NCBI GenBank assembly: GCA_902800815.1
Contig: CADCGB010000002.1
Location: forward strand, 62,001 to 126,000
Direction of reading: 5' to 3'
Origin: Fibrobacter succinogenes
GTDB taxonomy: Bacteria; Fibrobacterota; Fibrobacteria; Fibrobacterales; Fibrobacteraceae
Length of the DNA: 64,000 nt
Under the pieces are notes generated by a model. That model was not told the origin of the DNA. It was given only the letters and a program-made list of their open reading frames with translations, and did no database searches. Each line of letters starts with the position of its first letter. Position 1 is the stretch's first letter. A program made the translations under genes and the position numbers. Shown piece after piece: positions 4,031 to 62,100 of the stretch.

Positions 4031-7000
4031 AGTTTTTACCGCGGCGCACGCCCCAGAAATTGTCGCGAACTTGGTGAAGTGTATTTTTTCCGTTCACGAC
4101 AATTTTTATTTCTAGGCGCGAGATGTAGACGCCAGTCCCGACCAAGCGGCCGCTATTGGAACGCATGTTCCATGCAAGGAAGATATTTCCCTTGTTCTTG
4201 AGGCAGCCCTCTTCGCCGTACACGCCCTTGTCGGAGCACCTTATCGTATTGGACGTTCCGCCCACGTACTCGCCGAACTGACTGTAATAGAACGTGCGGT
4301 AGTACAGTTCCACGGCATCGTCAGATACAACCGTCCTTTCGCCGCTACGGTACTCTTCGAGATTGAACTCGGTTACCTCGCCCGCCTTTACGGCATCGAT
4401 AAGTTCACGCGCAACGCCTGCTTCTGCAAGTTCCGCATCCAGCCTGCCGCTACGGATGGCATCGAAGAGGTCGGCCTGCGTCACGGTCTGGACGTTCCCT
4501 ATGGTGATTACCGTATCGCGGCTCGCCTCGATATTCGCCTCCGCCATTTTCGCGAAGAGCTCCAGGTCGCCCTCGCCGACAACGGACCTGTAGTTGTCCT
4601 CGGTAATGGAACCGTCCAAAATCCCGTTGATGGCCTGCTCGCTAAAACCGTACGAGGTATCCACCAGGTTCACGCGAATGTCGTTGAACAACTGCGTCAA
4701 GGCTTCCTGCTCGCTGATGCCGACAATCGTCGTGTCGTAATCAGTTTCGCTCCCGACGCGAGACTTCACGAAGGCATCGAACTTCTCGACGGCATCCTTC
4801 GTCTGCTCTACCATAATCTTCGCGATATCAAAAGCGACAAGCGAGCCCTGCACGCCGAGCGAATCCGCTATCTGCTGGGCGCTCTGGCTTATATCTGTCA
4901 CAAGCTTCACCTGCGTAACCGTATCGTTCCCGATAACGCCATAGGGGTCTTCTCCCAGCGAGACTACGCCCGGGTTCTCTACACCGAGTTCCTGGTCGCC
5001 CGTAATGGCAACCCACGGATTGTCCCTGTGCGGTACATTCCCGGCAAGGTCCTGCGCACCGCCCTTGGGTGCAAACCTGATCAGGTCACCATCCGTCGGC
5101 AGTACAGCCCCGTTCCCGCCCGAGGTATAGACGAGCGTCATGCGCGCACCCGTGCCGCCCTGCTGCAGAGGCCTTTCGGGCTTCTCGTTTATTCCCGAGC
5201 GCATGCAGGTGTATTCAAAGATTTCAGTAAACAGGTGCCGGGACTCTTCAGAAATCGCCTCGCTGAAGGTAATGTCTATAAGCCTGCTCCCGTCCTTGCT
5301 TAACTTTTTCGAGGCAGAAAGCACGATGGGTCCGACACCATCGGCAACCTGCTCGTTCTCGATAAAGAAGTTGCTGACCTCGCCCTCATTTTCGTAGGTA
5401 AACCAGTTGTTCAGGCTTCCAGAATAGATTCCCGACGCATCTCCGGTAAACTGTCTACTACCAAAACCGCAAACCTTCCCGGTACATTCCGCGCCAAGGT
5501 CTTCGGCAGTAAGTACGATGTCGGTCTCGTTCACAATCTTGAAGTTCGATGTCGCCACGAACGTTTCTCCGAAAGTCAGCTGGATAGAATCCAGACGGCT
5601 CTTGCCATTGACTGCGCGCTCAAAGTGAACGTACAGGCTGTCGGCACGCCCGTCCCCGTTCCGGTCCATCGCAATAGCCTTCTCCACACGCGGTGCGGGT
5701 GGTTCGGCAAACTTCAGGTCGGTCCATACCGAAACCCCCGCCGCGGCGCCCTTCGCCGTGAGCACGGTTCCGGACACGGGAGCATTCGCATGCACGTAGA
5801 ATGTCGCACGCCCATCCTCGTCCAGGTTCACCGCGCTGATTTTCTTTCCGCCCGGCGCATCCAGGATATCTATCGCCGCATTCGAGAACGATAGGTTTAT
5901 CTTGCGGTTGTAATTGTTGACGACGGCCCATTCCTCGAAGAACGTGATATTCACCTGGTAAGTCGCATACGCCCAGGGGCCAATCTGCGCCGTATCGCCA
6001 GAGACCTGCGTACCGAGGACAGTCCAGTCTTCCTTCGCGAACGCGACGCTCGGCACGGAATAGGACGGCACGGTAATTTCCACCTTCGTCACCTGGCTCG
6101 GGTCAGCCTTCAGGGTAATTTCCAGGAAGTAGTGCCCGGGAGCAAGCGCGTAATTCGAAACAATCGCTGCAGAATCTATCGAGAACGTGGAATCGCTCGT
6201 AATCTTGATTCCCTCGTAATGGGTACCGACCCCGAGTATCTCGGGCCCCGCGAGGTTACCGCCGGTAAGCTTGAAGGTCGACGCGCCACCGGTCGTATCG
6301 CGCTCGGCAGAATTCGCGTCGAAATTGCAGGAAAGCTTGCTCTTCTTGTTGATCTGCCATACCTCGTAACTCATTCCGGAGCCGCGCCTGTCCGAAGTCA
6401 GGAACAGCGACGCCTCGACCTGCAAGTCAATGGAAGTGCGCATGCGGAAATTCGACGAACCGGTATGGCGCTCCACGTAAAAAATATGGAAGTCGTACGT
6501 CTTTCCCGGAACAAGCATGTCGCCGGTATTCTGCCCGATGGTATCGAGATCTACAGCACCCGCCACCTGGCCATGCTGCCCGCCGATATCCACCGCAAGG
6601 CGATTGTCGATAAACACCCAAACATCGTCGTCGCCGTAAAAGTCGAAGTACTGGCCCGGGACATACTCGAACGTCGCCTGGATCTTTGCGGCATACCCGA
6701 AGTTGTGCTTCCCTATCTTCGTTCCCTTCAGCTGGTCGTAGTAAGGGTTCGGAACCGTCTCCGCATCGTCGAGAAACTCGAAATCGTCCAGCAGGAACAT
6801 ACCGTCCGAATTGGCCTCGTTGCCTTTCGATATCTGGTCCTTCGAAACTTCCGCAAGCCAGAAACCCTCGTCATCCATAGATACATACAGGTCGCGGCAG
6901 GTCATGTTCGTGTATTCGTTGCCCGCACTGTCCTTGGCGACAACCTCGGGCAGGAACCAGCTGTCGAGATGCTCCGTAATCTTGCACTTTTCCGGGAAGG

Positions 7001-7610
7001 GGTCCGCACGCACGGGAACCCCGTTCGCACCGAGCCTGTATTCGACCATACCCGTAACAGCCTTGTCCTTGCCGGAGCACCCGCCCGAACCGAAGTCCGC
7101 GCTGACGCCGTTTGCGGGGTCACCGTTTTTTCCGCTTCCGTCGCCATCGCCATTGGTACCGTGCAGCCAGTCGTAGACGGTCACGGGAATCTTCTTGAGC
7201 GGGCAGTCGCCAAGCACGCCGGGGTAACCGGAAAACAGCGCGGGAACGTCGGTCTTGTAGCCCTGCACCCAGACCGTATCGGAGAGGGCGGCAACGGAAT
7301 CCAGCAATATCTCGCTAGATACCGAAGGTTCCTCGGCGACCATGCCCTCGGCACCCACGTAGTTGAGGCCGACAGTCTGCTTGAAGTAGACCCCGAAGCC
7401 CTCGGCGGGCGCATCCACCGTCGCCTTGAACCAGCCGCAGTAATTTTCGAGAGGCGTCATCGTGGCTACGGAATCGCCCCCTACGAACAGCACCGCGTTT
7501 GTGTTCGACCACGGCGTAAAGAAAACGACCGTCTTTTCGGCATGAGCCGTTCCGAGCGCCAAGACGGCAGCCACGGCCAGCACCCTGCCCTTTTCTACCC
7601 AATTCACCAT
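4005..7610 (-). CDS. Fibro-slime (PA14-like) domain secreted protein
   Basis: About 1201-residue exported protein. Several ATGs are possible (7631, 7619, 7610). I chose 7610 because CAGGGA lies 8 nt upstream and because it gives a compact signal peptide (GRVLAVAAVLALGTAHA/E). Residues about 25-100 resemble a small carbohydrate-binding-type module (TVVFFTPWSNTNAVLF). A fibro-slime/PA14 domain follows at about 140-400, with the diagnostic FDFYGDDDVWVFIDNRLAVDIGG and the motifs FHIFYVERHTGSSNFRM. Later segments are Ig-like or adhesin-like, including an N-G-D-G-R-A-D calcium-type loop. The C-terminal end (GRLVGTGVYISRLE) resembles a sorting-domain beta strand. In Fibrobacter, fibro-slime proteins are outer-surface proteins linked to adhesion to cellulose; that role is inferred here. 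It converges on and overlaps the second CotH gene by 26 bp. Confidence 0.88.
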   Translation of the reverse strand: MVNWVEKGRVLAVAAVLALGTAHAEKTVVFFTPWSNTNAVLFVGGDSVATMTPLENYCGWFKATVDAPAEGFGVYFKQTVGLNYVGAEGMVAEEPSVSSEILLDSVAALSDTVWVQGYKTDVPALFSGYPGVLGDCPLKKIPVTVYDWLHGTNGDGDGSGKNGDPANGVSADFGSGGCSGKDKAVTGMVEYRLGANGVPVRADPFPEKCKITEHLDSWFLPEVVAKDSAGNEYTNMTCRDLYVSMDDEGFWLAEVSKDQISKGNEANSDGMFLLDDFEFLDDAETVPNPYYDQLKGTKIGKHNFGYAAKIQATFEYVPGQYFDFYGDDDVWVFIDNRLAVDIGGQHGQVAGAVDLDTIGQNTGDMLVPGKTYDFHIFYVERHTGSSNFRMRTSIDLQVEASLFLTSDRRGSGMSYEVWQINKKSKLSCNFDANSAERDTTGGASTFKLTGGNLAGPEILGVGTHYEGIKITSDSTFSIDSAAIVSNYALAPGHYFLEITLKADPSQVTKVEITVPSYSVPSVAFAKEDWTVLGTQVSGDTAQIGPWAYATYQVNITFFEEWAVVNNYNRKINLSFSNAAIDILDAPGGKKISAVNLDEDGRATFYVHANAPVSGTVLTAKGAAAGVSVWTDLKFAEPPAPRVEKAIAMDRNGDGRADSLYVHFERAVNGKSRLDSIQLTFGETFVATSNFKIVNETDIVLTAEDLGAECTGKVCGFGSRQFTGDASGIYSGSLNNWFTYENEGEVSNFFIENEQVADGVGPIVLSASKKLSKDGSRLIDITFSEAISEESRHLFTEIFEYTCMRSGINEKPERPLQQGGTGARMTLVYTSGGNGAVLPTDGDLIRFAPKGGAQDLAGNVPHRDNPWVAITGDQELGVENPGVVSLGEDPYGVIGNDTVTQVKLVTDISQSAQQIADSLGVQGSLVAFDIAKIMVEQTKDAVEKFDAFVKSRVGSETDYDTTIVGISEQEALTQLFNDIRVNLVDTSYGFSEQAINGILDGSITEDNYRSVVGEGDLELFAKMAEANIEASRDTVITIGNVQTVTQADLFDAIRSGRLDAELAEAGVARELIDAVKAGEVTEFNLEEYRSGERTVVSDDAVELYYRTFYYSQFGEYVGGTSNTIRCSDKGVYGEEGCLKNKGNIFLAWNMRSNSGRLVGTGVYISRLEIKIVVNGKNTLHQVRDNFWGVRRGKNFSGLASSR

Positions 7611-7638
7611 AACATCCATCCCTGAGATCATTTACAAT

Positions 7639-7751
7639 GTTCTCAATTTTTAGGAACAAATATAATATCATTCCAACAAAATCTATTATTTTAAATAAAA
7701 TTTTACCATTTTTCAACAGCAAACGTTCTCACTTTTCACAAGATGTTCTCA
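7639..7751 (-). promoter_or_regulatory. Upstream region of fibro-slime gene with three TGAGAAC repeats
   Basis: On the minus strand TGAGAAC occurs at 7745-7751, 7725-7731 and 7639-7645. The first two are exactly 20 bp apart, two helical turns. A TATATT -10-like box lies at 7659-7664, so the distal pair would sit roughly 70-90 bp upstream of the start of transcription and the third within the leader. This arrangement suggests a regulator binding site, but no regulator is identified. Confidence 0.4.
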
Positions 7752-7772
7752 TTTCCCCTCAGAAACGACCAA

Positions 7773-7800
7773 ATAAAAAAAGGCGGCGCAAGGCCACCTT
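7773..7800 (-). terminator. Rho-independent terminator (second of two)
   Basis: On the minus strand an 8-bp stem (AAGGTGGC / GCCGCCTT, one G-U pair) with loop CTTGC is followed by a run of seven T. The same 23-bp element recurs at 10363-10385 after glnS. It backs up the terminator at 7824-7848 for the gene ending at 7856. Confidence 0.75.
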
Positions 7801-7823
7801 ATTCTCCACATCTTGCTAAAAGC

Positions 7824-7848
7824 AAAAGGGACGTCCGATGGACGCCCC
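7824..7848 (-). terminator. Rho-independent terminator of TPR gene
   Basis: On the minus strand a 9-bp stem (GGGGCGTCC / GGACGTCCC, one G-U pair) with a 3-nt loop is followed by TTTTGCTTTT, 8 bp after the stop codon of the gene at 7856. Confidence 0.8.
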
Positions 7849-7855
7849 TTATTTG

Positions 7856-8842
7856 TTACTTCTGATTCGACCAGATGACGTAATCCTTGAGGGATTCTAT
7901 CTGCTTTTTATCCAGGTAGTAAGCCAGCGAGGGCCTATCCGGGAGAATGATTTCGTACATGATAAAGGAATTGATCTTCCCTGCCGAAAGGACCTTGTCC
8001 AGGCGTGTAAGCGTCTTTGAATTTGCCTTCCGTTCATCAATCTTCGGCAACAGGCCGGCAAGGCATTCCTTGATCATCGCCTCGCCCATGTCCTTGTTAG
8101 CCTCGGCACGCTTCTTGTACTCGGGTTCGAACTTCCACGCTGCCTCGATAAACGCGTAATACATCCAGAGGGTATCGACCTCCACCACCACGGAACCATC
8201 GGGTGTCTGGAGGACACGTGCCTGCGGGTTGAACGCCCAGTGGCTTGAATCGAGCCCGTTGGCCGCATAGATTTTCTGGCGCAGGGATTCGAGCCGCGGG
8301 TTGTTACGGTTCAGCACCTTCGCGATAGAAATCTCCTCGAGGGCCTTTTTCTGTTCGCCTTTGTTGCGGTAAACATCGGCAAGCAGCCAGTGTGCGAGGT
8401 AATCGATGTAATTCGCCTCTATCGCCTTCTTATACCAGGATTCAGCCATGTCCCAGTTCTGCTCAATGCCGAAGGTCTGTGCGATGTAGGCCATCACGAT
8501 AGTCGCATTCGGGTCGAGCAGCAGCACGCGCTTGTAGGCATCGCGGGCCTTCGCGTATTCCTTCTTGGCAAACAGGTCTTCAGCCTTGTTGAAAGCCTTC
8601 TTCAAATCGCCCTTGAACTCAAAGGCGGTTACCTTGTAGCCACCATCCACCGTCTTGCGGTAGGCGGGCATGTTCAGCAGCTTGCTGCGGTCCGGTTCCG
8701 GGAAGGGCTTCTTGAGTTCCTTCACGGAATAGGCAATCTTGGAGGAGTTCAGCGTCTCCATCGCACGCTTCAAGGGGTTGTCGTTTTCCGCAAAGGCTAC
8801 TGCGGCAGACATGCAGAGAATGAGAAGTGTCTTGAATTTCAT
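7856..8842 (-). CDS. Exported tetratricopeptide-repeat protein
   Basis: 328-residue protein with a signal peptide (LLILCMSAAVAFA/E) and at least two TPR units in the middle: AEDLFAKKEYAKARDAYKRVLLLDPN near 90-115 and WDMAESWYKKAIEANYIDYLAHWLLADVYRNKGEQKKALEEI near 131-172. TPR proteins act as protein-interaction scaffolds; the periplasmic location is inferred from the signal peptide. The C-terminal third is not recognised. No Shine-Dalgarno precedes the ATG, but TATAAT (minus strand, 8849-8854) lies 6 nt before it, suggesting a leaderless transcript of its own. The FISUMP gene upstream ends 18 bp away, so co-transcription is also possible. Two terminators follow. Confidence 0.8.
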   Translation of the reverse strand: MKFKTLLILCMSAAVAFAENDNPLKRAMETLNSSKIAYSVKELKKPFPEPDRSKLLNMPAYRKTVDGGYKVTAFEFKGDLKKAFNKAEDLFAKKEYAKARDAYKRVLLLDPNATIVMAYIAQTFGIEQNWDMAESWYKKAIEANYIDYLAHWLLADVYRNKGEQKKALEEISIAKVLNRNNPRLESLRQKIYAANGLDSSHWAFNPQARVLQTPDGSVVVEVDTLWMYYAFIEAAWKFEPEYKKRAEANKDMGEAMIKECLAGLLPKIDERKANSKTLTRLDKVLSAGKINSFIMYEIILPDRPSLAYYLDKKQIESLKDYVIWSNQK

Positions 8843-8860
8843 ACTGTAATTATAAAAAAG

Positions 8861-10324
8861 TTAATCCTTTACACAGCGAACGTAGCAACCGAATAGTTTC
8901 TCGTTCTTACTCATGCTCGCATAATCACTGCCAACATACAAATAATAGGCAAAACGCGGAGAAACGTCGTAAGAAGCCCAAAGACATGTGGAACTGCCTG
9001 TTTGCTGATTATTGAAGACGGGTGGCAAAACCATCCCGCCAGGCATCAGCGAAAATCCGTATTTATCACGGAAAGCACTTTCAACGGTTCTAGAATCATT
9101 CTGCCACAAGTTAGACGCCTTCAAGTTGCTATTCCCGGAATGCCGTTCATTGACTGCGTAGAGCATAGTCTGGAATTCAGCCAAATCCGGCAAATGCCAG
9201 CCTTCCGGGCAAATTCCGCGAACATCTCTCGCTCTTGTGCAATATGAATCATTGCCACAGCCGACCGCATCATCGGAAAACTTGCCCAGGTAGTCCATGG
9301 CCGCAGCCCAGGTATATCCATATCCGTACTTGGCACAGGAATCCTTGTCATCCTTGATGCATCCTGCCCCTTCCGGATAATCAAGCCTCAGATTTTCCGC
9401 CATCCATGTTTGATCACCGATCACGACAGTCTTGTATTCACGGTTGTCGCGACTATCCTTGAGTGTCCCGTATTCGCAGTTGTCCTCTTCTTGCGTCTTG
9501 CACGGTTCCAGTTGCGCGACATCCGCAGAATCGGGTATCACCTTATAGAAATCGTCATCCTTCACGCACCTTACGGCCATATAGCAGCCACCACTATTGT
9601 CTTTCCATTCCACCGGTTTTTCTGCTTCCAAGTTAAAGGAATACAGGCTACCGTACTGGGCATAGTCTGCCGACATGTATATGGCTTTCGTATTGGACCC
9701 TCCGCTACATCTCATTCCCGTGGGAGTCGCGGCAAAACCATAAATGTCCGTATCGCCCTGCCTATCGTACCAGGCGTCGACAGACCGCAGCAACTTGCCT
9801 GCGGAATCCGGGCCGCCAACAGTCGTCACCAGCTTGCTGAAATCCATAAATCTCGGAAGATGCCAACCCGCGGGGCACGATACTTTCGCATCCATGTCCC
9901 AATAGTAGCGCCATACATCAGTGTCGGCAATGTCCGGGGTATAATTATATGAATATTTCGTGGCAGTATCCGTATAGTTCAGGTTCTGCGCCATCCAGGT
10001 CTGTTCCCCGATGACCACGTACCGGTAAGCCTGTCCGTCGCGTTCGTCGATAAACACCTGCACGCTGCTCGAACTCTCGGGTTCCTGCGAACTGCTGGAT
10101 TCTTCTACAGAGCTACTCGATACAGAACTGCTGGATTCTGCAATGGAACTGCTAGATTCCGCGATGGAACTGCTGGAAACGATTTCAGATGAACTTTCTA
10201 TGGAACTGCTCGATTCATCCACAGGATATTCAAGCGATGACGAACCGTCATCGGAACACGCAGCCAGCGCCAGCGCAACAAAAGCACCCGTCACACATTT
10301 ATTAAAACTCATTTGCCTCTTCAT
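8861..10324 (-). CDS. Lipoprotein with two FISUMP domains
   Basis: 487-residue lipoprotein. The lipobox LAAC puts the lipidated Cys at residue 23. Residues 27-88 are a linker built from SSSS blocks. Two FISUMP (TIGR02145, Fibrobacter succinogenes major) domains follow, starting near residues 91 and 295. Each has the D-x-R-D-x-x-x-Y start, the W-M-A-(Q/E)-N-L core and a CPAGWHLP or CPEGWHLP block, and ends in V-R-C-V-K-D. AGGAGG lies 7 nt before the ATG. The family is abundant in Fibrobacter and its function is unknown; a surface location is inferred. A second two-domain member is at 38613-40139. Confidence 0.88.
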   Translation of the reverse strand: MKRQMSFNKCVTGAFVALALAACSDDGSSSLEYPVDESSSSIESSSEIVSSSSIAESSSSIAESSSSVSSSSVEESSSSQEPESSSSVQVFIDERDGQAYRYVVIGEQTWMAQNLNYTDTATKYSYNYTPDIADTDVWRYYWDMDAKVSCPAGWHLPRFMDFSKLVTTVGGPDSAGKLLRSVDAWYDRQGDTDIYGFAATPTGMRCSGGSNTKAIYMSADYAQYGSLYSFNLEAEKPVEWKDNSGGCYMAVRCVKDDDFYKVIPDSADVAQLEPCKTQEEDNCEYGTLKDSRDNREYKTVVIGDQTWMAENLRLDYPEGAGCIKDDKDSCAKYGYGYTWAAAMDYLGKFSDDAVGCGNDSYCTRARDVRGICPEGWHLPDLAEFQTMLYAVNERHSGNSNLKASNLWQNDSRTVESAFRDKYGFSLMPGGMVLPPVFNNQQTGSSTCLWASYDVSPRFAYYLYVGSDYASMSKNEKLFGCYVRCVKD

Positions 10325-33637: not shown

Positions 33638-34297
33638 CTAGAAAGCGTAGCCTATCGCGTAGTTGAGGTCTATACCAAAGCCCGATTCCGCAGCCTTGTC
33701 GGCATCGCCCTCATCAATATCGTTAGAAGTGAACATTGTGTACCCAAATCCCAATTCCGTAAACGTGACAAAGTGCCCGCTCTGGACCTTTAATCCCAGA
33801 TAGCAGGCAAAAATCCAGGCGGAAGCTTCACCGGACGAGGAACTGCGATGATTGTAGTAATCGCTCTTATAGTCAACAGAAATACTCTCGTAACCGACTT
33901 GCGGCGACACGTAAAAACCTTTGTGACCTTCATTGAAATAGAACCTGAGTCCTTCGTAAAGCCCGTATGCAAACAGGTCTCCACCGGAGGCCGATGCCCA
34001 CATGAGTTCCGGGCGCGAGGAGAGCGACAGCCTCGAGGTAAGGTTATTCTCCACCGTCACCGTAATCCAGGGTATCCCGAATATGGTTGTGAAGATAAGC
34101 AACGATACAGGATGAATGGAAATAGACCAGCGGGTATTGGGGACAACGGGTTCAGGTTGCGACGGAGCGGCCTGGGTCGAAATATGCTCGTCGGAGGACG
34201 CAGTGGGCTGGTCAGAGCCATAGTTCGACCAGTTACCCCCCTGGGCGCCAGCAAAAATGGCAAGGAACAAGGCTACAATAGCAATGCGTTTAATCAT
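33638..34297 (-). CDS. Outer-membrane beta-barrel protein
   Basis: 219-residue protein with a signal peptide (IVALFLAIFAGA/Q), a Ser/Pro/Gln-rich spacer to about residue 55 and a beta-barrel: alternating strands such as GLRFYFNEGHKGFYVSPQVGYESISV and a final strand LNYAIGYAF ending in an aromatic residue, as outer-membrane insertion requires. The pattern is like DUF3575 small barrels. AAGGAG lies 5 nt before the ATG. It is 44 bp after the first PCMD lipoprotein gene and probably the last member of that cluster. Confidence 0.75.
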   Translation of the reverse strand: MIKRIAIVALFLAIFAGAQGGNWSNYGSDQPTASSDEHISTQAAPSQPEPVVPNTRWSISIHPVSLLIFTTIFGIPWITVTVENNLTSRLSLSSRPELMWASASGGDLFAYGLYEGLRFYFNEGHKGFYVSPQVGYESISVDYKSDYYNHRSSSSGEASAWIFACYLGLKVQSGHFVTFTELGFGYTMFTSNDIDEGDADKAAESGFGIDLNYAIGYAF

Positions 34298-34341
34298 TTG
34301 TTCTCCTTTTTCCGTACAAATTCGCCCAAAATCTAGTAAAA

Positions 34342-36120
34342 TCAGTAGATTAGGCGCATTTCATCGGCCCAAAGGGTAGCCCCAACAGAACCCTTATACA
34401 GGTTACCAAGCGCACTGGAGGCCATCACCACGCGGATATGCGTCACGTCAAAATCGTCCGGAGAATCGGTCTGGACCACATGATTATCGATACCGGCAGA
34501 ATTCTTGAGCGACTTCGAGAAAACACTGGAATTGAAAATCGGCGACCCTTCCAGAGGAACCCCGTACTTGAAGGCCATACGGATAGTCTTAAAGCCGTCG
34601 TGCGCGGCATCGGTAATAGAGACCACATCCGGATCATCCTCGCTCGTGACCGTCGTTGCACGGTACCAAGCGCTCGCCACCATTGTATTCACGTCGCTCG
34701 AGGTACGGTACTGATTCTTGCCCTCGTTGCTAGAACGGCTTCGGTGTTCCAAAATCACGTACAGGTCACAACTGTCGCCCTTGCCCTCGTACTTCACGTC
34801 AAATTCCACATACTTGGGGCGGCCATAGAACGGCCTACCGAAATCAATAAGTTCATTACCGTCATCGTACTTTGTCAGGTTTAACGTACCCACGCCCTTG
34901 GGGTTGAAATAAGCGACAAGCATGTTACCGCTAGCGAATTTTCCTATGCCGAGAATCTTCGCATCAATGGATTCCATCTTGACAACTTGTTCGTCCTCGT
35001 TCACAGTAAGCGTCTTGGTCGAATTTATGGCAGAGTTATTGCCGTTGTCCCAACCAGCAATATCGTTCTTGTTGCCAAAATCATCCTTAATCCAGTGATT
35101 GAAATCGCTGTTCGGGTACTGGTAGCCCGCCTTCACGGTATAGGTACGTTCGCCACCGTCACTCGTAAGCTTCATCTTGTAGCCACGAGTAAAGTCGTAG
35201 GACTCGCCCTCTTCGATATTGGCAGTCGCACCGTCAGAAAGTTCCAGTGATTTTACTTCAAGGTCGCGGAGGTCCAAGTCCTTGCTATAATCCATGTTCA
35301 GGAATACCGTGCCCGCATCCTGGTCGATTTCACCTTCGACATCGCCCGCGCCCACTTTTATCTTCAAGAGTTTCGGGGCATCGGGAGAAACCTCTTCCGA
35401 AGAAGACGATTCCGGTTCCTCGCCACCCGCAGAGGAATTGCCCTCGCCACCGCTTGCAGAACTGTCGCCGTCCTTTGCAGAGGAACTGGACGAATTATCG
35501 GAGCCCTTGCTGCTACTAGACGCATCTGACTTGCCCGACGAAGAATTACCGGACTCCTTCGTGGAAGAAGAGCTCTTTGCGTCCGTATCGCCGGATTCCT
35601 TTTTCGAGGAGGAAGACTTGACCTTCTTCTCGGGAATCTCGAATTCCATCTGCCAGATAGAGGGGTTCCCGCTTTCGGAAACGACCACCAGGTACACGAC
35701 ACCGCTCGAAGGCACGCGAATCTTGTCGCCTTCGCGGAGGCGGTCCTTCGCGTACGAGACTTCCTGTACCAGCGAGTCTATTGCGGCAGAATCGTTCGGG
35801 AATTCCTTGAACTTGCTATTGACCAGGTGGAACGTCGCCATCGAGCTAATGTCGAGCGAGCCAATCGTCACCGAATCCCAGGTGTCGAGACTGTCGGGAA
35901 TCTCGGCAAGCGATACGATAATCTTGTGTTCGCCCTCATAGATAGCGGCATTGCCGTCCTGTTCCTCGAAGGCGATACCGTTGAACTTGTTGTAATCGGA
36001 AGCCCCGAAGGTATCATAGTCGGCGGAGCAGGCAAACAAGGCGAAGGCAACAGTGGCCGTCATGACCACAGAGAGCGTTGCAAGCATCCGTTGCAGAGAA
36101 AGCGCGTTCAGAACCTTCAT
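34342..36120 (-). CDS. PCMD-domain lipoprotein (first of pair)
   Basis: 592-residue lipoprotein with lipobox FAC (Cys31). An N-terminal beta domain (about 35-165) leads into a long Ser/Lys/Gly/Glu linker (about 170-245) and a second small domain. A C-terminal PCMD (putative carbohydrate metabolism domain, PF13201-type) beta-sandwich at about 340-592 is marked by IDFGRPFYGRPKYVEFDVKY and ending LWADEMRLIY. PCMD proteins are surface-associated and thought to bind glycans; the ligand here is unknown. AGGAG lies 7 nt upstream of the ATG. It lies 10 bp after the paralogous gene, so both are one transcript. Confidence 0.82.
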   Translation of the reverse strand: MKVLNALSLQRMLATLSVVMTATVAFALFACSADYDTFGASDYNKFNGIAFEEQDGNAAIYEGEHKIIVSLAEIPDSLDTWDSVTIGSLDISSMATFHLVNSKFKEFPNDSAAIDSLVQEVSYAKDRLREGDKIRVPSSGVVYLVVVSESGNPSIWQMEFEIPEKKVKSSSSKKESGDTDAKSSSSTKESGNSSSGKSDASSSSKGSDNSSSSSAKDGDSSASGGEGNSSAGGEEPESSSSEEVSPDAPKLLKIKVGAGDVEGEIDQDAGTVFLNMDYSKDLDLRDLEVKSLELSDGATANIEEGESYDFTRGYKMKLTSDGGERTYTVKAGYQYPNSDFNHWIKDDFGNKNDIAGWDNGNNSAINSTKTLTVNEDEQVVKMESIDAKILGIGKFASGNMLVAYFNPKGVGTLNLTKYDDGNELIDFGRPFYGRPKYVEFDVKYEGKGDSCDLYVILEHRSRSSNEGKNQYRTSSDVNTMVASAWYRATTVTSEDDPDVVSITDAAHDGFKTIRMAFKYGVPLEGSPIFNSSVFSKSLKNSAGIDNHVVQTDSPDDFDVTHIRVVMASSALGNLYKGSVGATLWADEMRLIY

Positions 36121-36130
36121 TTTCTTTCTC

Positions 36131-37543
36131 CTAGTATATCAGTTTAAAATCATCCAACACGAGCGCCGAATTTTCGCCGCCGCGGAAATTTTGCGGAGCT
36201 AGATCTGCACCCAAAAGAACCCCGCAGCCAGACACGACATGAGCATAGGCCGAAGAAGCGAACATCACGTGTATCGAGACAACATCTTCGTCGCCAGTGC
36301 CGAGCGATAGGCCTTCCGCAACGGGATATTCGCCCGAAAGCAGCCCGAATGGGTCCTTGCCATAAGAAAGTTCAACCGTACGGGTCGTCATCTCCGTGCT
36401 TTCGCTATCCGAGAAGGCGCCGGTCGCGACCACCTTGCCGTTCTTGCCCACGAGCATCACGTACACGAGGCTCTTTTGCGGGTAGTCCGTAGACTTGTTC
36501 GCCACATGGCTATAGGAATACTTCACCGTGAATGCGGTCGGGCGTGCAGTAAACGGCCTGCCAAAAGTCATATCCTTTACTATGTAGGAATCGTCCGTAG
36601 AAGGAGTCCCGTCCGTATAGCCCTGCTCGTAAATATCGAGCGCGGTCTCGCCTGCATAGGAACCGGCAAAGTAGAAGCCGCTCGCCATTTTTCTGTCACC
36701 GTCAATTACCGCTAGGGAGCCTTCGATTTTGCGGGTTGTAATAGTCGCCATACCATCGCCAAAAGCAAGGTTCGCCTCGGAAGAAACCGTTATGGCCGCA
36801 GAGGTCTTCTTTGTCGCCATCGCATCGCTCGTGGTTGCCCAGAAATCGTTGCGGGCGCTAAAGTCGGAGCCAGGCAGTTGCGGTTCCTCACGTTCGCTGC
36901 TCGAGGATTCGTTTTTTTCACTGCTCGATGATTCTGCGGAAGAACTGGATTCGGAAACCTCACTCGACGAAGATGCATCCTCCGACGAACTCGAAGCAAT
37001 CTCGCTGCTCGAGGCAGGTGCAACAGAAGACGAGGAACTTTCCGCAGGCTCTTCGCTCGAGGAACTCGCCACCTTTTCACTACTGGAAGAAGCCTTCTCG
37101 GCTTCGCTCGAGGCAGGAACAACAGAAGACGAAGATTCCCCCTCGGGCAAGCTTATGGTCCAGACATCCACCACGCGGTTCGACTCGTCAAGCACGACAA
37201 GCCGGAGACCTTCCTCGCCTATCGCGAGCGTCGTGCCGGTACTTACCGGATTATCCCAGTCAATTTCAGGGTCCACCGGGTCGTCATCAAGCGCGAGGTA
37301 GCATTTTTTGCCGCCTAAGGCCGCAATGTTATCGACCGTAAAGGAATCTGTTCCCTCGGGGAGCACAATCGCATGCGATTCCAGGTCAATATCCGCATCG
37401 TCGATATTCTCGAAAAGTTCGGACAGGTTAGGAGCTGCAACCGGAGTTTCCACCTCATCGGAACAAGCCCACAGGCCAAGCGCCAGCGAGCACAGCGTAC
37501 CCGCGATAAGCGACTTCATTTTCCCGTGAATCTCGAACCGCAT
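36131..37543 (-). CDS. PCMD-domain lipoprotein (second of pair)
   Basis: 470-residue lipoprotein with lipobox LWAC (Cys27). Residues about 135-222 are a linker built of SSSS and SSE blocks. A PCMD-type C-terminal domain (about 226-470) has MTFGRPFTARPTAFTVKYSY and ends NSALVLDDFKLIY, the same architecture as the neighbouring protein but divergent in sequence. The start at 37543 has AGGGGA 5 nt upstream; an internal ATG at 37519 is a weaker alternative. It lies 9 bp after the beta-barrel gene and 10 bp before the other PCMD gene. Function is inferred only as surface glycan-related. Confidence 0.8.
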   Translation of the reverse strand: MRFEIHGKMKSLIAGTLCSLALGLWACSDEVETPVAAPNLSELFENIDDADIDLESHAIVLPEGTDSFTVDNIAALGGKKCYLALDDDPVDPEIDWDNPVSTGTTLAIGEEGLRLVVLDESNRVVDVWTISLPEGESSSSVVPASSEAEKASSSSEKVASSSSEEPAESSSSSVAPASSSEIASSSSEDASSSSEVSESSSSAESSSSEKNESSSSEREEPQLPGSDFSARNDFWATTSDAMATKKTSAAITVSSEANLAFGDGMATITTRKIEGSLAVIDGDRKMASGFYFAGSYAGETALDIYEQGYTDGTPSTDDSYIVKDMTFGRPFTARPTAFTVKYSYSHVANKSTDYPQKSLVYVMLVGKNGKVVATGAFSDSESTEMTTRTVELSYGKDPFGLLSGEYPVAEGLSLGTGDEDVVSIHVMFASSAYAHVVSGCGVLLGADLAPQNFRGGENSALVLDDFKLIY

Positions 37544-37552
37544 AGCAATCCC

Positions 37553-38512
37553 CTAGAAGAATGTCACCAGCGAGAAATCCAGCGCCAGGAGGTTTATGGT
37601 GAAATTCACGATGTTATACACAAAGCGGCTGTTCGTCTCGTCGTTCTCTTCCACATCGATAATGCTAGAACTCAGGCCCAGAAGGCCCACCGAGGTCTCG
37701 AACGCAAAGCGGTCCAGCACCATCACGCAGATACCCGGATTAAGCCCCGCCTTGATGGTCCATCCCCTGTTACGAGTCTTCTTCATGTCCTCGCCGTCAT
37801 CGGTCTGCGAAATGCCGTAAGAATACTCCACCGAAACGGAAGTCTCGTTGAAGAGGTAGAAAATGCGGGAATCCAGAACCTTCAGGTAGTTCTTCAGTAG
37901 CGGCTGCACAAAGAACCCGTTGCTCACGTACTTGCGGCGTTCCTTCACATCCATCAGGTCTTCAAGAATCGAGAAGTCGATATCGAACCACGTGCGCGAA
38001 TAGCCAGCACGCAGGCCGAGCGCCATCGCATCGCGGATAAAGTACCCGCCAAAGGCCTCGACCGTAAACGTGTAGCCGTAGGCCTCGTAAACATCGCCAA
38101 TGAGAATGTTCAGAGCATCGTCCTCGGTATTCGCCTGAATAAGCGAGAGCGTCGCTCCCGCATAGAAATGCCCCTTCGCAATCGACTCGTCCGGTTCTAT
38201 CGGGAACAGGGCATCCAGAATGCTAGACTTTTTCGCAGGTGCCGCAGAATCTGCCGTAAGCGGAACTGTCTCGGGGACCGTTACCGCAACAGGCGTTGCC
38301 TGGGCCGGTGTTTCCGCAACCGGAGTTTCAGCAACAGGGGCTTTCGCAACCTGATTTTCCTCAACCGAGGCTGTTTCTACCGATTCCGCCTCCGGCACAG
38401 CATTCTCTACCGCCGGTGAAGTTTCGGTCTGTACAGAATCCGGAGCCGCATCCTGCGCAAATGCGGGCAAAAAGGCAAAAAACAAGGAAATAACAAAGGC
38501 GGCTCTTCTCAT
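37553..38512 (-). CDS. Outer-membrane beta-barrel protein with Pro/Glu-rich stalk
   Basis: 319-residue exported protein: signal peptide (FVISLFFAFLPAFA/Q), then about 80 residues rich in Pro, Val, Glu and Ala (repeats of VAETP) and a beta-barrel of about 210 residues (GHFYAGATLSLIQ, GLRAGYSRTWFDIDF) ending LDFSLVTFF, an aromatic last strand. It is the first gene of the cluster with the two PCMD lipoproteins. No Shine-Dalgarno is visible; the upstream 100 bp hold a TATAAT about 17 nt before the start. The specific family is not recognised. Confidence 0.75.
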   Translation of the reverse strand: MRRAAFVISLFFAFLPAFAQDAAPDSVQTETSPAVENAVPEAESVETASVEENQVAKAPVAETPVAETPAQATPVAVTVPETVPLTADSAAPAKKSSILDALFPIEPDESIAKGHFYAGATLSLIQANTEDDALNILIGDVYEAYGYTFTVEAFGGYFIRDAMALGLRAGYSRTWFDIDFSILEDLMDVKERRKYVSNGFFVQPLLKNYLKVLDSRIFYLFNETSVSVEYSYGISQTDDGEDMKKTRNRGWTIKAGLNPGICVMVLDRFAFETSVGLLGLSSSIIDVEENDETNSRFVYNIVNFTINLLALDFSLVTFF

Positions 38513-38612: not shown

Positions 38613-40139
38613 CTATTCCGCGTCCTTGACGCAGCGGAGCGCATAGCCCATGCGTTTATCGAAATCCTGGCTAGAAATATCGTGGTTAGAGACGTACCAG
38701 GTGACGGCACCCTGGGCGTTTACCTCGGATGATGTCCAGTAATGTGCGGCAGTCGCGCTCGCAAAGCTCTTGCCATAGCGGGTATCTACCTCCCCTGTCG
38801 GGATATCGATCAGTTCCTTTTCAAGACTGGAGGAATACTGACGCAAGTCATACCATTCCGAACTCGTCGGCACGTGGAATCCCTCGGGGCAAATCCCGCG
38901 AACAGGGGATTCCTCGTTACACCTATAGCCATAACCACATTCCGCAGCAGTCTTACCCATTGCGGCATGCCACAGGTACATGGCCCCGCGCGTCTTGCAG
39001 TTTTCCGGGTCGTCCTGCCAGCAGAAGGTCGCCCCTTCAAGCGCAGGCGTTTCCGTACTGTCGGTATACCTCAAGTTTTCTGCCATCCAGACCTGCGTAC
39101 CGACTTTCATCACGCTATAGACTTCGCCATCGCGCACATCCGTAATAGTTTCCAAGTCATCCAGGGTCACACTCGAAGAGGAGACTTCGGAAGAAGAGCT
39201 TTCCACAGATGAACTTGAACTTTCCACGGACGAACTTGAAATTTCACTTGAACTGCTAGAGGATTCACCGGAAACAACCGTTTTTTCAACCTTCACCTCG
39301 CCCGGATCAGCCACGCAACGGAGCGCGTAGCCATAATCCTTGCTGTAGCTCTGGCTCTTGAACGATGTTTCGGAACCGCAGCGGTAGAACTCATACGCAG
39401 CCAGGGAATTCGCCTGCGATGCAGTCCAGTAGCGGGCGCAATTGTCCATCTTCGCATAATCCCCGTGTTCACCCGTCGGTGCAGAGGTAAAGCCCGTCTC
39501 CGCATTGAGCGAAATGTTCAAGCGGGTCGCATTAGACTGGAGCGTATCCCATTCCGCCTTCTTAGGCACATGGAAACCTTCCGGGCAAATTCCCCTATGC
39601 GGGTAGAGAATACCGCAGAAATCCTCCGCACAGCCCAAGTCATTTACCACAGCGGCAAAATCATACACGTATCCGTTCTGCCGGCAATAGCCTTCCTCGC
39701 CAACACACCAGCTATGCTTTGCAAGCAACGAATTCGCATCGGCATCGTGGTACCTCAGATTTTCCGCCATCCAGACCTGCGTGCCGATTTTCACCACGCG
39801 GTAAACCTCGCCATCGCGCTTGTCGATAATGGTATTGAGGGTCTCGTCACTCAAGAAGGATTCCTCTTCAGGTATAGAGGAGTCCACCCCGGAAGATGGC
39901 GAATTTATGGTAGACGACGAGTTTATAGATGACGAAGAATTTGTAGAAGAAATGCGCTCGCTCGAAGAACTTTTTGCGCCACCCTTCCCGGAAGAGGACA
40001 CGGGGCCGGCACGATTGTAGCCCGTGTAGTCATCATCCTCGGGCGACATCAAGCCCGAAGAGCCTCCATCACAGGCCATAAGCGCAAGCACCCCGCAGGC
40101 AATAGCCGCTAGCAGCACCGGCAAAAAGATTCTACGCAT
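38613..40139 (-). CDS. Lipoprotein with two FISUMP domains
   Basis: 508-residue lipoprotein with lipobox LMAC (Cys23). A Ser/Asn-rich linker runs to about residue 95. Two FISUMP domains start near residues 103 and 325, each with I-x-D-x-R-D-G-E-V-Y, GTQVWMAENLRY, RGICPEGFHVP and a terminal GYALRCV. A second SSSS linker (about 290-320) joins the domains. AGGAG lies about 7 nt before the ATG. It is a paralogue of the gene at 8861-10324. The domain function is unknown; a surface location is inferred. Confidence 0.88.
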   Translation of the reverse strand: MRRIFLPVLLAAIACGVLALMACDGGSSGLMSPEDDDYTGYNRAGPVSSSGKGGAKSSSSERISSTNSSSSINSSSTINSPSSGVDSSIPEEESFLSDETLNTIIDKRDGEVYRVVKIGTQVWMAENLRYHDADANSLLAKHSWCVGEEGYCRQNGYVYDFAAVVNDLGCAEDFCGILYPHRGICPEGFHVPKKAEWDTLQSNATRLNISLNAETGFTSAPTGEHGDYAKMDNCARYWTASQANSLAAYEFYRCGSETSFKSQSYSKDYGYALRCVADPGEVKVEKTVVSGESSSSSSEISSSSVESSSSSVESSSSEVSSSSVTLDDLETITDVRDGEVYSVMKVGTQVWMAENLRYTDSTETPALEGATFCWQDDPENCKTRGAMYLWHAAMGKTAAECGYGYRCNEESPVRGICPEGFHVPTSSEWYDLRQYSSSLEKELIDIPTGEVDTRYGKSFASATAAHYWTSSEVNAQGAVTWYVSNHDISSQDFDKRMGYALRCVKDAE

Positions 40140-40195: not shown

Positions 40196-40786
40196 CTACT
40201 TTTTCTTAAATCTCAGATAAAGACCCTCAATTTCGGAACGAAATGCCTTGAACAGGGTCAAGCCATCCAGCGCATCGGAAAAATACTCCACTTCCAGCGA
40301 CTTGGGCGCATCCACATCCGCATTTTCCATGTCACTTGTCATTTGTATGTAATTCGTGGGGTCCGCCACTACCACGACAAGCATCGTCCAGTCTGCACCC
40401 GCAGGCATCGAGAACTCCGTAACAAAATCGAGGACGAGTTTCCCCTTGACCATACTCGCCTTGAAATCCCTTATGCGCTTCGCACTCAGGAAATTCGACC
40501 CTGCCTGTACGTAATTGTAGTAGTTACTCTTTTCTATGGGGCCAAGAATTGCGGTCTGCAGCGAAGATAGTTCGCCTGCAGAAATCTTCCCGTCGCCATC
40601 CTTGTCCACCGAAGAAAGCATCGCGATACTGTAGGCCTCGTCGTACGTCCAGTGGTTTTCAATGCCGACAAAACCGGTCGCATCGTAGAGGACCTTCACC
40701 TTGACATCGGCAAATACGTGCGGATGCGCAAACGCCTGTGCCGCAAATATGGGCACAAGTATCAGGAATAGTAACAATCCGCGCAT
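40196..40786 (-). CDS. DUF1007 family exported protein with EF-hand
   Basis: 196-residue exported protein with a signal peptide (LLLFLILVPIFAAQAFA/H). The mature N-terminus HPHVFADVKVKVLYD and IENHWTYDEAYS are DUF1007 signatures, and a canonical EF-hand loop DKDGDGKISAGEL (near residues 80-92) predicts calcium binding, as in other members. DUF1007 proteins often occur beside metal or sulfur-compound transporters; none is present here. The start at 40786 gives a compact signal peptide. It lies 13 bp after the PEGA protein gene, so the two are probably one transcript. Confidence 0.85.
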   Translation of the reverse strand: MRGLLLFLILVPIFAAQAFAHPHVFADVKVKVLYDATGFVGIENHWTYDEAYSIAMLSSVDKDGDGKISAGELSSLQTAILGPIEKSNYYNYVQAGSNFLSAKRIRDFKASMVKGKLVLDFVTEFSMPAGADWTMLVVVVADPTNYIQMTSDMENADVDAPKSLEVEYFSDALDGLTLFKAFRSEIEGLYLRFKKK

Positions 40787-40799
40787 GGGAACGCCCCCG

Positions 40800-42401
40800 C
40801 TAGAAGGCAAATACGACACCCGCCACGAGGAGGCCCGCACCGATTGCACCGAGGCCTATGCCTATCGCCGCCTTCGTGTCACCGGACTTGTTCAGGTCGT
40901 GGTTATCCTTGATCAGGCGTTGAGCCTTCTCGCTGTCGAACACCGAGCGGTTGTATTCGTGCTTCTTGTCGGCCGCATCGCTCCAGTTGCGTTCGGCTAG
41001 GTACCAGAGTACCCCGCCCGCAAGGATCGGCGCAATGGAGCTCCACAGGAGCACCTTGCCCACACGGCGGTCGCTACGCTTCTGGTTGAATTCCCTCTGG
41101 CCCTGGATGTACTCGATATCGTCTATCGCCTGCAGTTCCACGTTAATGAAGTTCGGCATGAAGGCCTTAATCTCGGTGGTAATGGAGGTATCGCGATAGC
41201 CCACCTTGCGGAAGAACAACTGCATCTGCGCCTGCGGCTTTACGTCGTCGACGATAAGGTCGGTCACGTAGTCGGGGAAGCGGTTCACCGTAGGCTCCTC
41301 GCCCACATAGACTTCGACCGCTTCTGGGTTCGTGCTGAGCGTTATCCTCGTGGAGGGGCGCTGCACGGGGATTTCCACCTTGTTCAGGCTATCCGCATTG
41401 ATCTTCACGGTGGCAGAGCCCCACCATTCCACATCGCGCAGGACCTTCATCACGGAAATCGTGTACTTGCCCGGCTTGATGTTCTTGATGGTATCAGGCG
41501 CCACCTGTTTGAGCGCAATCCCGTTCACAAACAGCGAGCACGCCTCCGGATTCGAGGTCACGAGCAGGTTCGCCTTTCCGGGAGGGTACAGTTCCATTTC
41601 CTCTTCCTCGTCCTTCACGACGGGCACCACGTAGTTCGAGAGCGAAAGGTCGATCATCACCTTGTCCTCGAGGTTGTACAGGCGCTTGAGGTCAAGCCTG
41701 AAAATCTTGATATACGGGTTCTCGACCACGTTCGCAAGGCTATCCTGGATTTCACGTTCGCGGATTTCGGCCTCGACCTTCGCGACCTCTTCCATCTTGA
41801 GGCGCTTTTCCTCCTTCTCGAGAGCGGCCTCCAGGTCGTCCTCGGCATCGGCAGCAATCTCGGCTGCCTTCGCGGCCTCGGCAGCGGCAATGGAATCGGC
41901 AATTGCGGCAGAATCGGACTTGGCGGCAAGGGAATCCTTCACCGCATCGGTCATAATGACCTCGGCAGGCTTCTGCGGTTCAGGCTTGTCATCGTCCTCG
42001 AATTCATCCTCTTCCTCGACCTTCTGGCCGTTGCTTTCCTGGAGCGCAACCGCCTCCTCGTCGCGGATTTCTTCCAGCACCTTCTGGGCGGCATCATCCG
42101 GGGCACGCAGGTAGACGGTATCCTTCTCAATCTTCACGAAAATGGCTTCCTGTTCCACGGAATCGCCCACAAGGAAATAGCGGACGGGCACCTCGCGGGT
42201 CGTAGCCGTATCGGCGGGGTTCACGACAGCAGCCTTCGGGGCCGGTGCAGCAGGGGCCGGAGTAACAGCGGGAGCGGGTGCAGGAGCCGAGGCTACCGCC
42301 GGAGCGGCCTCAGGCGCCGGGGCATCCTGTGCAAAGGGTACGGAAAAACACGTCGCACAAAGTACGACCAAAAACACGAAAGAACTTATTCGTTTCTGCA
42401 T
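40800..42401 (-). CDS. PEGA-domain exported protein
   Basis: 533 residues. A signal peptide (CATCFSVPFA/Q) is followed by an Ala/Pro-rich stretch (25-60), an acidic segment and a long charged helix likely to be a coiled coil (about 165-225: AEDDLEAALEKEEKRLKMEE). Two PEGA-type beta repeats follow (NLLVTSNPEACSLFVNGIALK at about 285 and ITLSTNPEAVEVYVGEE at about 350). The C-terminus has two hydrophobic segments (VLLWSSIAPILAGGVLWYLA and IGIGLGAIGAGLLVAGVVFAF), so it is probably membrane-attached at that end. A TATATC box 8 nt before the ATG may give a very short leader. Function unknown; PEGA repeats often belong to envelope proteins. Confidence 0.8.
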   Translation of the reverse strand: MQKRISSFVFLVVLCATCFSVPFAQDAPAPEAAPAVASAPAPAPAVTPAPAAPAPKAAVVNPADTATTREVPVRYFLVGDSVEQEAIFVKIEKDTVYLRAPDDAAQKVLEEIRDEEAVALQESNGQKVEEEDEFEDDDKPEPQKPAEVIMTDAVKDSLAAKSDSAAIADSIAAAEAAKAAEIAADAEDDLEAALEKEEKRLKMEEVAKVEAEIREREIQDSLANVVENPYIKIFRLDLKRLYNLEDKVMIDLSLSNYVVPVVKDEEEEMELYPPGKANLLVTSNPEACSLFVNGIALKQVAPDTIKNIKPGKYTISVMKVLRDVEWWGSATVKINADSLNKVEIPVQRPSTRITLSTNPEAVEVYVGEEPTVNRFPDYVTDLIVDDVKPQAQMQLFFRKVGYRDTSITTEIKAFMPNFINVELQAIDDIEYIQGQREFNQKRSDRRVGKVLLWSSIAPILAGGVLWYLAERNWSDAADKKHEYNRSVFDSEKAQRLIKDNHDLNKSGDTKAAIGIGLGAIGAGLLVAGVVFAF

Positions 42402-59197: not shown

Positions 59198-62100
59198 TAG
59201 GCGTCCTTTTCCTCGGCAGCCTTCTTGGCCTTCTCTTCGGCTTCTTCGCGGGCGACGTCTTCAAGCGTACGTGCAACCTTGACTTCCTTGAAGAAGATGA
59301 GGCTGTCGCCTTCCTTGATATCGTCGTAGCCCTTGAGGCCGATACCGCACTCGAAGCCACGAGCGACAGACTTGACGTCGTCCTTCATGCGCTTGAGCGA
59401 CTGAACCACGGTCGTACCGAGTTCCACGCCGTTGCGGTACACGCGAACGTGAGAGGTGCGGTCCACTTCGCCGTCGGTAACCATACAGCCGGCGATGAGG
59501 CCGATCTTCGGAATCTTGAACACCTGGCGGATTTCGGCTTCGCCCGAAAGTTCCTCGCGCATAATCGGCTTGAGCAAACCTTCCACGGCGTTCTTGATAT
59601 CCTCGATGCAGTCGTAAATCACGCGGTAGTTGCGGATTTCGATGCCTTCCTTCTGAGCCATCTCGCGGATAGAGAGCGAGGGCATCAGGTGGAACGAGAC
59701 GATAATGGCAGATGCGGTCGTCGCAAGCAAAATGTCGGATTCCGTAATGGTACCCACACCCTTGCGGATGATGTTGACGCGCACTTCCCTGTTGGTAAGC
59801 TTTTCGAGGGATGCGGCAAGAGCTTCGGCAGAACCACCCACGTCGGCCTTGACGATGAGGTTGAGTTCGGAGAGCTTGCCTTCCTTCTTGTCGTTGAAGG
59901 AATTCTCGAGAGAAACGGTCTTGCGGGCGCGCAGGTCGCGTTCGCGAGCGGCCATGCGGCGCTTGCTCGCAATCTCACGTGCCGTCTTTTCGTCGTCGAC
60001 CACGATGAGGTCGTCACCGGCCTGCGGCGTACCGTCGAAGCCGAGCACCTGGCACGGGCTGGAAGGCGGCACGGCCTTGAGCTGCTCGCCACGTTCGTTG
60101 AACATGGCGCGCACGCGACCAGCGTAAATACCACACACGAACGGGTCACCCACATGGAGCGTACCGTTCTGCACAAGAATCGTAGCCATGGAGCCCTTGC
60201 CCACGTCGAGCTTGGATTCCACGACGGCGCCACGGGCGTGAGCGTCCGGGTTCGCCTTGAGTTCCTGAACTTCGGCTTCGAGCGCGAGCGTTTCCAGGAG
60301 CTGGTCCATGCCCTGGCCCGTACGGGCAGAGACTTCCACACAGCTCGTGGTACCGCCCCACTGTTCCACTTCCACGCCGCGTTCGGCGAGCTGGGCGCGG
60401 ATCTTGTCGGGGTTCGCCGTCGGAAGGTCAATCTTCGTGATGGCGACAACCATCGGGACCTTCTCGCGCTTTGCAAGATCAATACATTCTACCGTCTGGG
60501 GCATCACCATGGAGTCGGCAGCCACAACGAGCACGATCACGTCGGTCACCTGAGAACCGCGGGCACGCATGGCGCTAAACGCCTCGTGACCCGGAGTATC
60601 GAGGAAGGTCACCTTGCCCTGGGCCGTCGTTACTTCGTATGCACCGATGTGCTGGGTAATGCCACCCGATTCGCCAGAAACCACGTGGGTCTTGCGGATC
60701 CAGTCGAGGAGAGAAGTCTTACCGTGGTCCACGTGGCCCATCACGGTCACCACCGGATGGCGCGGCTTCAGGTTTTCCTGGGATTCCTCTTCCACGCCGA
60801 GAGCTTCCTCTTCGTATTCCTCCATGAGCTGGGCCTCATAGCCAAACTCGTCGGCAAGAATCTGGATGGTCTCGAAATCGAGGCGGGCGTTGATGGTCAC
60901 CATCATGCCCATCTCCATGCACTTCGCAATCACGCGGGCAGGCATCTGGTCCATGAGGCCAGCGAGTTCGCCCACGGTAATGAAATCGGAAGTCTTGAGA
61001 ATCTTCTTCTCTTCGCCGGAATCGTTGTCGTTGTGTTCCTTGCGATAAACTTTCTTGACAGGCTTCTTGGAAAGGTCGGCCATCACGCGCGAGACGTTCT
61101 GGCGTACCATTTCCTGCTGCTGTTCCTTCTGCTGTTCCTGGCGGTCACGGCTATTGCCACGGCGGTTCTTGTCGTTGCCGTGACGGCCATTCTGGCCCTT
61201 TGCGGAATTGCCGCCCTTGCCGGCATTCTGCGAGCCCATTCCAGGTGCGCTCGCGTTGAACGCCTCCTGCATGGAACCGCTGGAGAACCCACCGTTACGG
61301 CCGGTGTAGCCGCCGCGGGAACTGCTAGCGCCACCGCCCTGACCGGGCCTGCGCTGACCATTGCTACGATTGTCGCCGGTGCCGCTGCTACGCGGGCCGA
61401 ACGAGCCGGTGTAACCCTGGGCATTGCCCGGGCCACGACCACCGGGGCCGGGGCGACGGTTGCCACCCGGACCGCGGCCGCCCTGCTGTTGCTGCTGGGA
61501 CTTCGCGATACGCGCGAGGATGGCGGCATCGGGCTTGAACACCTGGGCCTTCATCGGGGGCTGCTTGAGTTCAGTATCTGCGGTCATCATCGTCGGGGCT
61601 GCAGGGGCAGCCGCGACAGGCTTGGGATCAGGCTTCACTGCCGGTTCCGGTGCCGGCGCTGCAACAGGCTTTTCGGGAGCAGCGGCGGGTTTCTCGGGAG
61701 CGGGGGCAGCCTTGGGAGCCTCCGGTGCAGCAGGTGCCTCTACGGGCTTCGGTGCAGCGGGCGTTTCGACCTTGGGGGTTTCAGCCTTAGCCGGTGCCGC
61801 GGGGGCAGCAGGCGCGCTTGCGGGAGCAGCGGCGGGGGCCTCGGCGGCAGCGGGCTTTGCCGCAGCCTTCGTTGCAGCGGGCTTTGCCGTAGCCTTCTTT
61901 GTCGTAGTAGCCTTCTTGAGGCTGATCTTCACGCCGTCCTTCGTCGTCGACGTAGTCGTCGACTTCTTCTTCTCGGTAGAAGATTCCGCATCGGAAGAAG
62001 ATGCCTTCTTCAGGTTCTTGGAGCGGGCATCCTGTTTCTTCTTCTCTTCGGCGACTGCCGCTTCGATCTTTTCGAAGTCCGAAGCGTTCACCTTCGACAC

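Follow-up and report, generated by a model that had tools for sequence, protein, structure and literature searches.

A small predicted outer-membrane barrel encoded beside PCMD lipoproteins in Fibrobacterales and Bacteroidia

Introduction

The PCMD family (PF13201) includes BT2081 (3HBZ), BT3745 (4HET), BACOVA_00087 (4JRL) and BVU_0247 (3S30), secreted or lipid-anchored proteins in which an Ig-like domain is followed by a jelly-roll PCMD. For BT2081 a glycosidase activity was proposed, with catalysis by the pair Asp259 and Asp338, Bacteroides PCMD proteins were found in polysaccharide-utilization loci with SusC homologs, and the paralogs of BT2081 were tied to SusC in 2010 (PMC2954218). PCMD has remained a "putative" domain since that year. 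Two other kinds of described system are relevant here, the small eight-stranded barrels of the OmpA/OmpW type and the systems that combine an outer-membrane barrel with surface lipoproteins, such as SusCD and the levan utilisome (8A9Y). The individual components are known, but for the pairing of a barrel with PCMD proteins we found no prior description. A literature search, with most subscription journals outside it, returned no paper on this pairing and none naming PCMD together with Fibrobacter, and neither DUF4493 nor the term "PCMD domain-containing" appeared in any paper searched.

Here we analyze such a pairing in Fibrobacter succinogenes (assembly GCA_902800815.1, contig CADCGB010000002.1), in a stretch of 64,000 nucleotides (positions 62,001 to 126,000 of the contig) that we refer to as the window.

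Results

The locus

Four adjacent genes occupy positions 33638-38512 on the minus strand of the window, separated by gaps of 9, 10 and 44 bp (Table 1), an arrangement reported in the first-pass annotation and borne out by both the open reading frame list and the sequence. Its assignment of the two middle genes as PCMD lipoproteins also held, as both have a lipobox-like cysteine and both match PF13201 above the Pfam cut-off of 28 (B, 54.5 bits, E = 1.8e-14; C, 41.7 bits, E = 1.4e-10). In B the cysteine begins a conserved tail, CxADYDTFGxSDY. A search with PF13201 found no PCMD genes in the genome besides B and C.

Table 1. Genes of the row and nearby features, with positions in the window
Feature	Position	Strand	Length	Description
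Gene D	37553..38512	-	319 aa	Predicted outer-membrane beta-barrel, first gene of the row; signal peptide, disordered Pro/Ala-rich tether (about 22-94), conserved pre-barrel motif, barrel 116-319
Gene C	36131..37543	-	470 aa	PCMD lipoprotein 1; lipobox-like Cys27, Ser-rich linker, PCMD at C-terminus
Gene B	34342..36120	-	592 aa	PCMD lipoprotein 2, core partner of D; lipobox-like Cys31, N-domain 48-165, Ser linker, Ig-like domain 248-333, PCMD jelly roll 334-592
Gene A	33638..34297	-	219 aa	DUF3575-like predicted small barrel; lineage-specific neighbor
FISUMP gene	38613-40139			FISUMP-domain (Fib_succ_major) Ser-rich lipoprotein
DUF1007/EF-hand-like and PEGA-like genes	40196-40849 and 40800-42401			DUF1007/EF-hand-like protein; its mechanical GTG start overlaps the end of the PEGA-like gene

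The genes on either side of the row are unremarkable. The FISUMP-domain gene lies 100 bp upstream of D and occupies the same spot in only a few close relatives. Downstream of the row there is a thioredoxin gene, followed by hisF-like and tldD-like genes, labels that we assigned from their own sequences without a family search. No CAZyme was found by Pfam among the flanking genes scanned. As had been claimed, neither SusC nor SusD is encoded beside the locus; SusD (PF07980) has no match anywhere in the genome, and the single match to a TonB-dependent receptor (PF00593) is on another contig.

Conservation of the unit in Fibrobacterales

A PCMD lipoprotein gene follows D in all 37 Fibrobacterales loci whose contig extends past the barrel gene, and D is always the first gene of the row. 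The gap between the two is mostly 3-15 bp, with extremes of -101 and +36 that rest on mechanical start codons. In 25 loci D and B are separated by C, while in the other 12, about a third of those read, C is missing and D and B are directly adjacent. The surroundings vary, with the thioredoxin-hisF-tldD neighborhood found in one clade and other sites elsewhere. The identical arrangement of D, C and B occurs in L096, a locus from a different family within the order, and in a sister family there is a 275-residue PCMD protein (L097, 7446-8273) with neither a barrel neighbor nor a clear lipobox.

D was found, almost always as a single copy, in 78 of the 101 Fibrobacteraceae genomes sampled. Both D and PCMD are present in 76 of these genomes and neither in 16, while two have D only and seven PCMD only (Fisher 2e-11, a value that ignores shared ancestry). 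In both D-only genomes D lies at a contig end, and of the PCMD-only genomes six have high-scoring BT2081-type proteins (genera g11 and g14) and one has its gene at a contig edge. Since seven genomes in the sample that belong to the same genus lack both genes, the function is dispensable.

In a tree of the PCMD domain the Fibrobacter B and C proteins form two well-supported clades, both of which extend into the second family, and the duplication that gave rise to them is therefore old; C has probably been lost more than once. Among complete genes B ranges from 519 to 1038 residues through extra Ig-like repeats and linkers.

The position of gene A is different. Of the 40 loci fetched, 8 contain it, and even near relatives (L063-L065) are without it; for this reason we place it outside the core. 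The gene order proposed in the first-pass annotation is thus conserved for D, C and B and not for A, and its view of a barrel-lipoprotein-lipoprotein-barrel bracket acting as a unit is not supported, as A was added in particular lineages and in many genomes only D and B are found. The conserved unit is a core of D closely followed by B, often with C between them, rather than the row of four genes. As for the nature of A, the protein of the window has weak similarity to PagL and itself has no match to DUF3575 (PF12099) in Pfam, a family matched by six of nine of its relatives at E<=0.1 (best 8.5e-9), so that A may be called barrel-like from its sequence. A and D were also considered as paralogs; no such relationship is detectable (hhalign probability 46% over 31 columns).

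The predicted barrel D

The other flanking protein that had been taken for a barrel, D, is supported as one by structure prediction. AlphaFold2 models it as a beta barrel of eight long strands after a disordered tether, most blocks of the barrel having a pLDDT of 78-94 and two blocks a value near 55, and the predicted barrel ends in an aromatic C-terminus. The closest geometry in Foldseek is that of OmpW and OmpA (TM-score about 0.6 by target length), with TM-scores to OmpW of 0.57-0.64 by target length; FapF chains were among the top matches and gave the best E-value, but they superimpose poorly (TM-scores 0.19-0.27).

At the sequence level no curated family in Pfam or NCBIfam matches D of the window above its cut-off, and NCBIfam offered nothing useful for naming the barrel. 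The match to PF13505 (OMP_b-brl) reached 21.8 bits against a cut-off of 28.7; PF13568 (OMP_b-brl_2) does not match D of the window and matches 10 of its 37 relatives at E<=0.1. A sequence search of the PDB with the barrel profile returned no significant match, and Pfam found no OmpA peptidoglycan-binding domain in D. D shares a predicted fold with the OmpA/OmpW-type barrels and differs from them in lacking membership of a sequence family and the OmpA peptidoglycan domain, in its conserved outer loops and in being paired with PCMD lipoproteins.

The outer loops of D are conserved to about the same degree as several of its strands. With strand and loop borders placed by hand on the model, majority identity is 0.67-0.75 in the outer loops and 0.67-0.94 in the strands, compared with 0.38 in the signal peptide and tether, and among 37 sequences the loop lengths show one two-residue change. 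Because conserved outer loops are unusual in exposed barrels, this suggests that those of D reflect a conserved partner.

Structure and pocket of the PCMD lipoproteins

The model of B consists of an N-domain, a Ser linker, an Ig-like domain and a PCMD jelly roll. Its best Foldseek matches were BT2081 (3HBZ, 2.1e-16, probability 1.00), BT3745 (4HET, 6e-16) and BACOVA_00087 (4JRL, 2e-15), and the Ig-like plus jelly-roll architecture of BT2081 is present in the model. At 0.45 by target length the whole-chain TM-score to 3HBZ is low, which probably reflects differing domain orientation. The Ig domain also resembles that of the DUF4960 lipoprotein of the levan utilisome (TM-score 0.76-0.82 by target). 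Majority identity within B is highest in the tail after the cysteine (0.72), followed by the PCMD (0.68), the N-domain (0.61), the Ig-like domain (0.55) and the linker (0.51).

To compare the pockets we mapped the BT2081 pocket positions (PMC2954218) by profile alignment, in which the chain index plus 19 recovers all six published residues. The aromatic residues are largely kept in 33 B proteins, all of which have Tyr at the positions of Tyr261 and Phe340; Phe206 is retained in 31 of them, and 28 have an aromatic residue at the position of Phe202. Of the two acids, Asp259 is Asp in 32/33, whereas Asp338 is Asn in 30/33, so that B does not have the catalytic pair proposed for BT2081. This combination fits binding better than hydrolysis. 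The pocket of C, by inspection of the B-C alignment, is strongly altered and retains neither proposed acid; Asp338 is Ala in the 4HET-like relatives, and the acids are not retained in most of the barrel-paired Bacteroides proteins. Glycan binding by the PCMD would fit the fold and most of the pocket aromatics, and we infer it from sequence and model.

B thus has in common with the described PF13201 proteins its domain order, its secretion or lipid anchoring and most pocket aromatics. It has an additional N-domain, a Ser linker and the conserved tail after the cysteine, and it is without one of the proposed catalytic acids, while proteins of the BT2081 kind are SusC-linked in polysaccharide-utilization loci and have one Ig domain.

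The pairing in a second phylum

A barrel profile (A1) built solely from Fibrobacterales D proteins was run on 198 Bacteroidia genomes, in which PCMD matches were found independently with Pfam. Five matches were obtained at E <= 3e-11, all of them less than 1 kb from a PCMD match, an outcome with a chance expectation of about 1e-14 by a crude estimate. Since all five strong matches lie beside PCMD lipoproteins, the pairing spans two phyla. Three weaker matches (E 2e-5 to 3e-4) came from genomes for which no PCMD match was listed. A search with a mixed-phylum barrel profile was dropped as evidence, being partly circular in that its strong matches lay in the training set.

In two Bacteroidia genomes (L175 and L176) the unit consists simply of one barrel gene and one PCMD gene, in L175 at 8071-8862 with 6982-8058, and their lipoprotein starts, CVKEDFFGLSNY and CVNENYFGASAE, closely resemble the Fibrobacter CTADYDTFGTSDY. 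PCMD genes of the BT2081/BT3745 type have another tail, CIQDEALNSEAA, and no D-like barrel near them in the flanks fetched. In Bacteroides the pair sits inside rows of DUF4493 lipoproteins; such rows of DUF4493 and PCMD lipoproteins contain one or two D-like barrels (L158-L161, L173, L174). D-like barrels with no PCMD neighbor also occur in Bacteroidota (L180, L181), and the weak matches in G290, G211 and G170 and the mid-score matches in G428 and G608, which have no PCMD neighbor, were treated as general barrels.

A further observation concerns a single-domain PCMD protein of about 320 residues, which is a conserved neighbor of a Bacteroides sulfotransferase/PAPS-synthesis cluster (L151, 7315-14014; also L152-L155 and L157). 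The cluster has the layout of BT_0411-BT_0416, the cholesterol sulfotransferase cluster (PMC9417993). PCMD may therefore not be solely a carbohydrate domain, and the PCMD ligand need not be a glycan, because these other PCMD proteins adjoin a sulfotransferase cluster.

Discussion

The unit of D and its PCMD partners is probably a real and undescribed cell-surface device, and its role would most likely be that of holding on to a glycan. Starting from the gene unit, its conservation and the aligned pocket residues, and with the folds as predicted, we infer surface exposure, docking, a glycan ligand and adhesion in the following model, which we favor tentatively: D and B, with C where present, may well form a non-transporting surface complex of the outer membrane whose stalked PCMD tips bind glycan for adhesion. 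The eight-stranded D would be a fixed base, and the lipid-anchored B and C would dock on its conserved extracellular loops through the tail that follows the cysteine of B and the matching stretch of C. A stalk of adjustable length would be made up of the Ser-rich linkers together with Ig-like domains, whose number varies, and at its tip the C-terminal PCMD jelly roll would bind a glycan and not cut it. The target could be the fiber, a surface polymer of another cell or one of the cell's own.

Several other functions were weighed against this model. A role in envelope maintenance facing the periplasm, with D OmpA-like, B and C on the inner leaflet and the PCMD binding peptidoglycan or LPS sugars, would explain why the unit is common and strongly conserved within the genus and almost always occurs once per genome, and the long tether ahead of the barrel of D is expected to be periplasmic. 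We regard it as unlikely, because the unit is missing from seven same-genus genomes, the outer loops of D are conserved and Pfam found no OmpA peptidoglycan-binding domain in it, and because the long, variable stalks of B and the acidic residues after its cysteine suit surface display better. Less likely still is a role of D as a dedicated exporter or flippase, comparable to Slam or FapF, by which the PCMD lipoproteins would be brought to the exterior side of the outer membrane. There is one barrel gene for each one or two lipoprotein genes and it always comes first in the Fibrobacterales row, which would suit an exporter, as would the FapF matches by E-value; the eight-stranded OmpW/OmpA geometry fits D far better than the poorly superimposed FapF, and a barrel of eight strands leaves no internal channel wide enough for a protein.

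That the PCMD lipoproteins are surface glycosidases, a notion that derives from the BT2081 proposal and to which the near-invariant Asp259 of B lends some weight, appears improbable given the replacement of Asp338 in B and in the 4HET-like relatives and the loss of the acids from C and most barrel-paired Bacteroides proteins. Nutrient uptake in the manner of SusC/SusD, with D as the pore, has the precedent of the Bacteroides PCMD proteins in utilization loci with SusC homologs, but we consider it very improbable: D is predicted to have eight strands and no plug, the genome is without SusD and has its sole TonB-dependent receptor match elsewhere, and no CAZyme is found in the scanned flanks. 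A pore or transporter was rejected for D on the grounds of its predicted strand number and the missing SusD, and the transport role suggested in the first-pass annotation is correspondingly unlikely. That the four genes are accidental neighbors with no joint function is scarcely credible, as adjacency is conserved within one order and again in another phylum; this is refuted for D with PCMD, while for gene A it may hold.

The adhesion complex that we favor would have an outer-membrane barrel and surface lipoproteins in common with SusCD and the levan utilisome, the surface display of D and B being conditional on the model, and it differs from them in having no TonB-dependent transporter, SusD or enzyme and an eight-stranded barrel without a plug. 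Among its counterparts are the Bacteroides DUF4493/PCMD clusters (e.g., L158, L173 and L174), uncharacterized themselves, in which genes for PCMD lipoproteins flank that of a homologous barrel within one operon-like row; these rows also encode several lipoproteins with DUF4493 and, in some cases, a further barrel. It is possible, although we hold this with less confidence than the model itself, that the barrel-PCMD units of Fibrobacterota and Bacteroidota constitute a class of outer-membrane complex not yet described, built from a small, non-transporting barrel and stalked PCMD lipoproteins that recognize a specific surface polymer, and that in Fibrobacter it would serve adhesion to fiber or cells without SusC/SusD.

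Expression data exist for F. succinogenes S85 (PMC6851124). How Fibrobacter attaches to fiber is a long-standing question, and a compact two-gene unit of barrel and PCMD lipoprotein, kept in two phyla, would provide a short, testable handle both on fiber attachment and on the function of the PCMD domain.
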